Positions 17,314-62,573 of a stretch of 64,000 nt of DNA are shown here, one piece after another. The notes below the pieces were generated by a model. The model did not search any database and was not told the DNA's origin. It worked only from the letters and a program-made list of their open reading frames with translations. Source of the stretch: Rhizobium sp. Leaf306 (lineage in GTDB: Bacteria; Pseudomonadota; Alphaproteobacteria; Rhizobiales; Rhizobiaceae). A program made the translations under genes and the position numbers. Location: contig NZ_LMNX01000001.1 in the NCBI RefSeq assembly GCF_001423425.1, positions 1,198,970-1,262,969 of the forward strand. The letters run 5' to 3'. The number at the start of each line of letters is the position of its first letter. Position 1 is the first letter of the stretch.

Positions 17314-17688
17314 ATGTCGACGCTTCCCTGCATCGCGCTTATTGCCCACGACCTGAAGAAGGACGAGATGGCGGAATTTGCGCGCCGGCATCAGGCGGCA
17401 CTATCCAAGTTTCGCATCGTCGCGACCGGTACGACCGGCGGCCGCGTGCTTGAAGCCGCTCCCAATCTCGATGTCACACGCCTGAAAAGCGGTCCGCTTG
17501 GCGGGGACCAACAGATCGGCGCGATGATCGCAACCGGCGAGGTGGGCATGCTGATCTTCTTTATCGATCCTTTGAGCGCGCTTCCCCATGACGTCGACGT
17601 CAAGGCGCTGACGCGGCTTGCGACCGTCTACGATATCCCGATGGCGCTCAACCGCGCCACGGCCGAAAAGCTTGTTGATTTCCAGTAG
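17314..17688 (+). CDS. mgsA: Methylglyoxal synthase
   Basis: Converts dihydroxyacetone phosphate to methylglyoxal and phosphate, a bypass that relieves phosphate limitation in glycolysis. 124 residues from ATG 17314, with AGAGGAA just upstream. Active-site residues visible are His12 (IALIAHD), Asp65 ([10 protein letters not shown]), Asp85 and His92 ([16 protein letters not shown]). It lies 16 bp before glk and is probably cotranscribed with it. Confidence 0.95.
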
Positions 17689-17704
17689 GAGGAGAGAATT
17701 CGCC

Positions 17705-18724
17705 ATGGCTGAAGTGCAACCGCACACATTCGCCTTCCCGATCCTGATCGGCGATATCGGCGGCACCAATGCCCGCTTCTCCATCCTCGTCGATGCAACG
17801 AGTGCGCCGGATCAGTTCCCGCATGTGCAGACGGCCGACTACGAGACGATCGACGATGCGATCGCCGATGTCGTCTTGAAGAACTCCGTGCACAAGCCAC
17901 GCAGCGCGATCCTTGCGGTCGCCGGCCCGATCGATGGTGACGAGATCGACCTCACCAATTGCGAATGGGTCGTGCGTCCGAAGAAGATGATCGGGGAACT
18001 CGGCTTCGATACGGTTCTGGTGCTCAACGATTTCGAGGCACAGGCACTGGCCGTCGCTTCGCTTACTGCGGCTGATCGCCAGCCGATTGGTCCGATCGCC
18101 GAAGCGACCGAGGCATCACGCGTTGTCCTGGGTCCCGGGACAGGTCTTGGCGTTGCAGGGCTTGTCCATGCCCGTAACACCTGGTTCCCGGTTCCCGGCG
18201 AAGGTGGGCATGTGGATATCGGTCCGCGTTCGAAGCGGGATTTCGAGATCTTCCCGCACCTGCGTCGCATCGACGGCCGGGTGTCCGCTGAGGAAATCAT
18301 TTCCGGACGCGGTCTTCTCAACATCTACAACGCCGTCTGCGCTGCCGATGGCATCGCCCCGAGCCTGGACGCTCCGCCCGAAGTAACCGAACAGGGACTT
18401 TCCGGCGAAAACCCGCAGGCTGCCGAAACGATCGAGCTTTTCGTCCGCTATCTTGGTCGCCTTGCCGGTGACCTCGCGCTCATCTTCATGGCACGCGGCG
18501 GCGTCTTCCTCGGTGGCGGCATCTCGCCGCGGATCCTTGATGCATTGACGAAGCCCGCGTTTCGTGAAGAGTTCGAAGACAAGGCGCCGCACAACGAGCT
18601 GATGAAGACCATTCCGACCTTTGTCGTCACGCATCCGCAGGCGGCCCTTGCCGGTCTCGCCAGCTTTGCGCGCTCGCCTGCGACCTACGGAATTGCGCTG
18701 GAAGGCCGTTGCTGGCAGCGGTAG
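17705..18724 (+). CDS. glk: Glucokinase
   Basis: ATP-dependent phosphorylation of glucose to glucose 6-phosphate in the cytoplasm. 339 residues from ATG 17705, with AGGAGGAG upstream. The bacterial glucokinase plan is clear: phosphate-binding [10 protein letters not shown] near residue 16, catalytic [17 protein letters not shown], and sugar-binding [10 protein letters not shown] with E/H residues. It follows mgsA closely. An MsbA-like gene follows after 134 bp. Confidence 0.96.
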
Positions 18725-41250: not shown

Positions 41251-41460
41251 TTAGACGGCGCGGAGGCTGTCAGCCGATTCCTTGCCGGAACGGCGGTCGG
41301 TCGTCAGTTCGAAGCCGATCTTCTGACCGTCCTGCAGCTGGCCGAGGCCTGCGCGCTCGACCGCGGTGACGTGAACGAAAACGTCCTTGCCACCGTCGTC
41401 AGGGGTGATGAAGCCGTAGCCCTTGGTTGCGTTGAACCATTTTACAGTACCAGTCGCCAT
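41251..41460 (-). CDS. cspA: Cold-shock protein CspA
   Basis: 69-residue cold-shock domain protein that binds single-stranded RNA or DNA and acts as an RNA chaperone. RNP1 is KGYGFITP and RNP2 DVFVHV. It starts ATGGCGACTGG at 41460, with AGAAAGG upstream. The leader may be long, as in other csp genes; no promoter is assigned. Single-gene unit. Confidence 0.95.
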
Positions 41461-41772: not shown

Positions 41773-41897
41773 AAAACAGAAAAGCCCGACGCGGGAGGAG
41801 GTGCGTCGGGCTTCTGAAACTGGCCAACAACTGGGAGGAGGAGTGTTGCCGGCCCCATCGGGGACGCTGGGAGGAGGAGTGCGTCCGTCGATGATTT
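41773..41897 (-). ncRNA. Alpha-r14-like small RNA with three anti-Shine-Dalgarno loops
   Basis: The minus strand folds into three hairpins, each presenting CCTCCTCCC in its loop: GGACGC/GCGTCC (41862-41886), CAACA/TGTTG (41825-41848) and a terminator stem AAGCCCGACGC/GCGTCGGGCTT (41782-41813) ending in TTTTCTGTTTTC. This matches the architecture known for the Sinorhizobium alpha-r14 family (NfeR1/Smr14C), about 123 nt with redundant anti-Shine-Dalgarno motifs. The 5' end near 41897 is estimated from a TATGTT box upstream. The rest of the 41461-42010 gap appears empty. Confidence 0.8.
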
Positions 41898-42010
41898 AAA
41901 CATACAGCGGAAACGCACAAAAAACAGACGTAATTTCGCACCGCAGCATTGCAAGAATTGCATGCCTCGCGAGACTTGCCCGCTGGATGCGCTTCGGTCA
42001 TGCTGCACCC

Positions 42011-42490
42011 ATGAGCCTTGAATCCGTACGCAGCTTTTTCGCGACCCACGCCCCTGACATCGAGATCATCGAGACCGAACAGAGTTCGGCGACCGTTCCG
42101 CTTGCAGCACTCGCGCATGGCGTCGATCCTGACCAGATCGCGAAGACAATCTGCCTGCGAGCGGGCGACGTCATGCTGTTGGTCGTAATGTCGGGAAACA
42201 GTCGCATCGACAATAAGAAGTTCAGGTCGGTCTTCAGCGCCAAACCGCGGATGCTGTCCGGCGATGAGGTCATGGCAGCAACTGGCCATCCGATCGGAGG
42301 GGTGTGCCCGTTTGGTCTTGCGACTGAGCTCCAGGTCTATTGCGACCTTTCGCTAAAGGATTACCCTGAGGTCGTGCCCGCAGCTGGAGCAACGAATGCT
42401 GCGATCAGGATTGACCCGGAACGACTTGCAGAACTCACCAAGGCCTTCTGGATCGACTGCGCCAGCCGAACGGATAGTTCGGCCGGCTAG
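42011..42490 (+). CDS. YbaK/ProX-type aminoacyl-tRNA deacylase-like protein
   Basis: 159 residues, single YbaK domain. Relatives hydrolyse mischarged tRNA, such as Cys-tRNA-Pro or Ala-tRNA-Pro. Typical segments are AKTICLRAGD, NKKFRSVFSAKPRMLS and the GGVCPFGL loop. The start is ATG 42011 (MSLESVRSFF). The substrate is inferred. Single gene, divergent from the sRNA. Confidence 0.87.
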   Translation: MSLESVRSFFATHAPDIEIIETEQSSATVPLAALAHGVDPDQIAKTICLRAGDVMLLVVMSGNSRIDNKKFRSVFSAKPRMLSGDEVMAATGHPIGGVCPFGLATELQVYCDLSLKDYPEVVPAAGATNAAIRIDPERLAELTKAFWIDCASRTDSSAG

Positions 42491-62471: not shown

Positions 62472-62573
62472 GGTGGGAGGTTGGTGGTGGACGAGCCACT
62501 CGCCAACCGGGTCAGGTCCGGAAGGAAGCAGCCCTAACGAGCCAGGCACGGGTCGCCGTGCCAGCCTCCCACC
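62472..62573 (+). ncRNA. ffs: Signal recognition particle RNA (small bacterial type)
   Basis: About 102 nt. GGTGGGAGG at the 5' end pairs with CCTCCCACC at the 3' end, and the conserved apical domain with GGTCAGGTCCGGAAGGAAGC forms the GGAA tetraloop and the Ffh-binding symmetric loop. It directs Ffh to nascent membrane proteins. Position just upstream of dnaX is usual in this group. Confidence 0.96.

Follow-up and report, generated by a model that had tools for sequence, protein, structure and literature searches.

A conserved alpha-r14 (NfeR1) family small RNA with a probable LsrB/VtlR box beside a cold-shock gene in Rhizobium sp. Leaf306

The window, the whole 64,000-nucleotide (64 kb) stretch of Rhizobium sp. 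Leaf306 DNA that was analysed, carries a gap between a cold-shock gene and a gene for a YbaK-like protein. The original prediction had named these flanks cspA and YbaK-like, and the names are borne out by matches to a cold-shock protein (PF00313) and an editing-domain protein (PF04073). For the second neighbour the YbaK equivalog model gave 54.9 bits, below its cut-off of 153.25, so the label 'YbaK-like' holds and 'YbaK' does not follow. Within the gap we identified a small RNA on the minus strand. The RNA and the cold-shock gene share a strand, the gene following 316 bases downstream, and the YbaK-like gene is divergent from the RNA:

41251 to 41460, minus strand: cold-shock (CspA-type) gene, ATG at 41460 and stop at 41251 (PF00313, 4.5e-23)
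41777 to 41896, minus strand: alpha-r14 family small RNA with three hairpins, about 120 nt (RF02344 match and covariation in 33 orthologues)
about 42011 to 42490, plus strand: YbaK-like aminoacyl-tRNA editing-domain gene, start maybe at 41987 (PF04073, 3.4e-24)

Three alphaproteobacterial sRNA families lie here within 3.3 kb, ar14 being accompanied by ar7 (RF02342; 38692-38835, plus strand; 92.4 bits, cut-off 60) and ar35 (RF02346; 41006-41147, minus strand; 45.4 bits, barely above the cut-off of 45). The window also contains a bacterial small SRP RNA (RF00169) at 62476-62572 on the plus strand (63.5 bits).

The Rfam search (release 15) matched the minus strand from 41896 to 41777 end to end to RF02344 (ar14), taking in model positions 1-123 of 123 and scoring 111.6 bits against a cut-off of 58.8 bits. 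This match falls within the interval 41773-41897 where an alpha-r14/NfeR1-type sRNA had been proposed on the minus strand, and it supplies the covariance search against the alpha-r14 model that had been suggested as a check; the proposal is upheld by it. Judged by the family model, the minus-strand RNA at 41896-41777 is a member of the known rhizobial alpha-r14/NfeR1 family and is very well conserved. The CcsR1 model (RF02791) gave 30.5 bits for the same RNA, under its cut-off of 65.3, and membership of that family was dropped.

Exactly three copies of CCTCCTCCC are present in the window, each of them on the minus strand. In dinucleotide-shuffled versions of the window the mean was 0.59 copies, and three were reached anywhere in 1 of 100 shuffles. 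Across the 5.0 Mb genome we counted 64 copies (35 forward and 29 reverse), and a reversed-pattern control in the same genome gave 61 (34 and 27). As the motif is about as common genome-wide as its reversed control, the notable thing is the presence of three copies within 85 bases. Each of the three lies in the unpaired loop of a predicted hairpin, with the following layout:

41869 to 41877, minus strand: anti-Shine-Dalgarno motif CCUCCUCCC, loop 1 (motif scan)
41833 to 41841, minus strand: anti-Shine-Dalgarno motif CCUCCUCCC, loop 2 (motif scan)
41793 to 41801, minus strand: anti-Shine-Dalgarno motif CCUCCUCCC, loop 3 (motif scan)
41855 to 41894, minus strand: hairpin 1, 6-bp inner stem on a 6-bp outer helix, 13-nt loop ACUCCUCCUCCCA (MFE and centroid fold)
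41822 to 41854, minus strand: hairpin 2, 10-bp stem, 13-nt loop ACUCCUCCUCCCA (predicted fold)
41780 to 41815, minus strand: hairpin 3, terminator-like, 10-nt loop ACCUCCUCCC and U-rich tail (predicted folds)

The minimum free energy of the minus-strand RNA is -55.9 kcal/mol, compared with -40.1 ± 3.7 kcal/mol in shuffles, none of 200 of which folded as well (z = -4.3 relative to the shuffles). Motif scan and fold thus agree with the earlier description of CCUCCUCCC in the loops of three minus-strand hairpins, the last of them terminator-like. That description had also given the first two stems as 5-6 bp, which is right for the 6-bp inner stem of hairpin 1, below which lies the 6-bp outer helix, and wrong for hairpin 2. 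The caveat drawn from short stems, that the exact fold might differ, loses its ground because the stem of hairpin 2 reaches 10 bp and the family model accommodates the entire stretch. The stem of hairpin 3 is 10 bp in one predicted fold and 13 bp in another. A simple terminator scan with a loop limit of 8 did not report this hairpin, whose loop has 10 bases.

A search for relatives of the YbaK-like protein found at least 77 loci besides the window. The listed loci are mostly from Rhizobium, Agrobacterium, Neorhizobium, Ciceribacter, Mesorhizobium and allies, and among the matches listed the nearest YbaK-like protein is that of Rhizobium populisoli (73% identical). At 32 of the 77 loci among the matches listed, the gap beside the YbaK-like gene holds at least two GGGAGGAGG motifs; in these 32 the motifs stand at a nearly constant distance, about 142-226 bases before the gene, and all 32 loci align with the window across the whole RNA. 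Rfam, run on 20 of the listed loci, found ar14 in all four with motifs (L035, L036, L066 and L076) and in none of the 16 scanned loci without them. Of the 20 related loci scanned, 11 have an ar7 match close to the YbaK-like gene and nine have an ar35 match. Among the 16 scanned loci without ar14, ar7 is near the YbaK-like gene in 11, seven of which have ar35 too, so the order of the surroundings persists where the RNA is missing.

The alignment comprised 33 orthologues, 28 of them distinct. Absence of covariation in homologous gaps had been named as an outcome that would speak against the prediction; in these 33 orthologues covariation is present. Pairing is kept in 96.4% of cells and falls to 31-42% when partners are slid by 1-3 columns, and two-sided changes occur at 16 of 34 pairs, where shuffles give 7.8 ± 1.1 and none of 500 reached 16, both controls being somewhat flattering because the structure was derived from one of the aligned sequences and the shuffles ignore relatedness. 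Further pair types, one of five covariation measures, numbered 31 compared with 29.2 in shuffles (57 of 500 as high). By hairpin, two-sided changes are found at 5 of 11 pairs in hairpin 1, at 5 of 10 in hairpin 2, where 100% of cells are paired, and at 6 of 13 in hairpin 3. The loops are nearly invariant in the orthologues, whereas the stems vary yet keep pairing. Exceptions in the loops are L060, with three bases missing from loop 1, together with L045 and L076, which differ directly next to a motif.

The consensus fold of 31 pairs has 58 G-U or U-G cells against 4 A-C cells on the minus strand, with 23 of the 58 falling at one pair and the fold program itself permitting G-U. This excess of G-U over A-C favours the minus strand as that of the RNA, an assignment supported by the G-U pairs together with the conserved upstream region. 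The plus strand, which carries GGGAGGAGGAG twice and GGGAGGAGG once, could be read instead as three GGGAGGAGG ribosome-binding sites of small genes. We give this reading practically no weight, since it is at odds with the balance of pair changes, with promoter-like conservation on the upstream side of the minus strand, and with the full-length Rfam match on that strand.

Outside the RNA, the best-conserved part of the aligned stretch is the region upstream of it. The pattern TGC-N7-GCA stands at one fixed upstream position in 33 of 33 orthologues, Agrobacterium included; in control slots this 13-base pattern occurred 26 times in 2720. The upstream elements are:

41950 to 41962, minus strand: probable LsrB/VtlR box TGC-N7-GCA, which fits T-N11-A (33/33 orthologues, and paralogues)
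41924 to 41929, minus strand: -35-like GTCTGT (by eye, 17 bases further upstream than the -10)
41901 to 41906, minus strand: probable -10 TGTATG (by eye, conserved promoter-alignment columns)

In the promoter alignment a -10-like GTAt directly precedes the RNA 5' end. An E. coli-type promoter scan found no promoter upstream of the RNA. The box of the window reads TGCA-N6-GCAA and spans -66 to -54 from the 5' end placed by Rfam; the strict form TGCA-N6-GCAT does not occur there and is found in 3 of the 33 orthologues. An excerpt of PMC10746234 reports gel shifts and point mutations for the LsrB site of S. meliloti NfeR1, TGCA-N6-GCAT at -72 to -60, and compared with this site the window box is shifted by about six bases towards the RNA 5' end. 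The same excerpt places an NtrC motif, TGC-N11-GCA, near -101 to -116 of S. meliloti NfeR1 and gives it as not evident in Agrobacterium or Brucella (PMC10746234). We found no such motif in the 300 bases upstream of the window RNA, and at -125 to -90 it is present in 2 of the 33 orthologues.

A LysR gene adjoins tandem ar15 (AbcR-type) RNAs in this genome, and the gene after it looks like trxB, which we presume it to be. None of the 25 NCBIfam models listed for the LysR gene passes its cut-off. A 2021 paper, going by its title, reportedly concerns the control of numerous A. tumefaciens sRNAs by a LysR-type regulator. A partial text of PMC8844928 describes lsrB beside AbcR1/2 in S. meliloti, and the LysR gene next to the tandem ar15 RNAs fits LsrB/VtlR, a name that rests on gene order. 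VtlR directly controls three sRNAs in A. tumefaciens, according to an excerpt of PMC7486931.

A longer element, TGC-N7-GCA-NN-GCTGC, occurs at 18 places genome-wide against six for the reversed pattern, and three of the 18 precede alpha-r14 copies: contig C1 at 1240912 (the window) and 1278400, and contig C8 at 61952. We also considered the LsrB-type box as a mark of the whole family and rejected this, as within the 150 bases upstream it lies at -74 to -60 in only 11 of 34 loci, at -112 to -94 in four, and elsewhere or nowhere in 19. These 34 loci are a chosen sample, made up of the five copies of this genome and 29 top-scoring loci (L006-L034) from 29 of 120 other genomes. Many of L006-L034 begin differently (e.g. 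GAATTCG) and have no LsrB-type box at the usual place; perhaps they represent a second promoter class of the alpha-r14 family. Several genomes of this set carry copies a few hundred bases apart.

Five alpha-r14 members score over the cut-off in this genome, and the window copy scores best. Both copies on contig C1 have three hairpins. In L002 and L004 (C3) and L005 (C8) the ar14 match is preceded by one more CCTCCTCCC hairpin, the fourth; two of these copies have the LsrB-like box shifted upstream to match, and in L004 it was not found. Degenerate loops, such as CTCCTCCC, are seen in one C3 copy and in the C8 copy. In the taxonomic family of the window an ar14 match is present in 116 of 121 genomes, over the cut-off in 108 of the 121, and it is present in none of 14 control genomes. 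In S. meliloti 1021, a replicon of 1.68 Mb that we take to be pSymB has a relative with 79.7% identity across 53% of the query. Forms with three and with four hairpins, as well as multiple copies, had been reported by 2011 (excerpt of PMC3927594), so the copy pattern here is not new.

With five copies in the genome, the window could hold an intact alpha-r14 gene that is unexpressed while another copy does the work. There is a precedent of this kind in S. meliloti, where one of six NfeR1 loci was detected by northern blot, as stated in an excerpt of PMC7143759. We consider a silent gene quite improbable at this locus, which is the genome's best-scoring copy, and whose orthologues keep both the RNA structure and, in 33 of 33, the upstream box at one position.

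The cold-shock gene raises a separate question. A cspA-type gene, detected in these counts by a short protein pattern alone, lies near 35 of the 40 loci that have the RNA motifs and near none of the 67 that lack them (the window, L112, counted once). Among the matches listed, the 1.5 kb upstream contain a cold-shock gene at 30 of 32 loci that have the RNA, compared with 0 of 45 that do not; a second set of 30 loci, the window included, gives 5 of 8 and 0 of 22. The two sets may share species and the loci are related by descent, so that, with a pattern this short, the linkage may amount to one or a few gains or losses. Strict linkage is contradicted by the five of 40 loci with RNA motifs where no cspA was seen.

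Placed 316 bases before cspA and on its strand, the hairpins might be a cis-acting leader or attenuator that controls read-through into this gene, and the linkage counts would suit such a role. It is very improbable nonetheless, as a terminator-like hairpin stands between the RNA and cspA, the roughly 30-45 aligned bases beyond this hairpin show no conservation, the five loci just mentioned have the motifs and no visible cspA, and no cspA lies within 1.5 kb of the other four alpha-r14 copies in the genome. A functional pair is also conceivable, in which the RNA would act without Hfq and the CspA-type protein encoded next to it would be its RNA chaperone. We regard this as a long shot; if true, it would account for cspA being found in the gap only alongside the RNA.

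Our preferred reading is a trans-acting alpha-r14 (NfeR1) sRNA on the minus strand, with its own promoter and an end at the third hairpin, which would silence multiple mRNAs and is probably activated by LsrB/VtlR. We put the probability of this reading at about 93%. Family membership, the covariation structure, the strand, the conserved upstream element, copy number and synteny were computed here, and for LsrB control, silencing, loop redundancy, Hfq independence and stress induction we infer from published S. meliloti work. The sRNA would be transcribed from its own minus-strand promoter, with the LysR-type regulator LsrB/VtlR probably activating transcription at the conserved box about 66 bases upstream, and the third hairpin would end transcription. 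Each of the three stem-loops is predicted to present CCUCCUCCC, which is complementary to a strong ribosome-binding site, so that one RNA could pair with the translation starts of many mRNAs; such pairing would stop their translation, and the three loops would be redundant. In S. meliloti NfeR1 is Hfq-independent, has three redundant anti-Shine-Dalgarno loops, and silences two transporter mRNAs and ntrBC (excerpts of PMC10746234 and PMC7143759). An S. meliloti family member affects salt tolerance, nitrogen metabolism and nodulation (excerpt of PMC10746234).

A target search across ntrB and 43 window ORFs gave no clear winner. The ntrB gene of this genome pairs modestly with the loop (-8.9 kcal/mol), and the 43 ORFs, each taken at the best of several starts, have a median of -6.6 kcal/mol, with thirteen outscoring ntrB. 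The strongest pairing in this crude longest-ORF set is that of ORF 17618-18724 on the plus strand (-14.9 kcal/mol), a possible target of the sRNA. In this ORF, AGGAGGAG is found shortly before a possible start codon. The neighbouring genes pair little with the loop, cspA at -4.3 kcal/mol over a stretch that stops three bases before its ATG, and the YbaK-like gene at -1.7 or -3.9 kcal/mol depending on the start. Given the crude choice of ORFs, the use of the best of several starts and the short cspA stretch, the pairing comparison supports no conclusion. With the NtrC motif absent upstream and the ntrB pairing modest, a nitrogen loop is not to be assumed here.

The founding member of the alpha-r14 family is NfeR1/Smr14C2/SmelC397 of Sinorhizobium meliloti. 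Like it, the window RNA has about 120 nt, three hairpins with CCUCCUCCC in each loop, variable stems and a terminator-like third hairpin, occurs in a genome with several copies, and is preceded by an LsrB-type box at a nearly equal distance. Unlike NfeR1, the window copy has no NtrC motif upstream, and its LsrB box is one base off TGCA-N6-GCAT. The window copy sits between cspA and the YbaK-like gene. RFMSmelA075 and RFMSmelA099 are the three- and four-hairpin forms in an excerpt of PMC3927594; on the criteria of hairpin number and loop motif, the window copy has the three-hairpin form and the three paralogues with a fourth hairpin are SmelA099-like. CcsR1 (RF02791), a two-hairpin CCUCCUCCC RNA, has the loop motif and hairpin design in common with the window RNA. 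AbcR1/AbcR2 (ar15), with three copies elsewhere in this genome, have anti-Shine-Dalgarno motifs too but form a separate family; in S. meliloti they have the target SMc03121 in common with NfeR1 (excerpt of PMC8844928), and LsrB binds the AbcR1 promoter (excerpt of PMC10746234). As the mechanism is already known, the value added here is mainly annotation and one hypothesis on cspA: the copy of another species joins a family with known S. meliloti roles, and 33 orthologous promoters are seen to have an LsrB-type box at a constant place.
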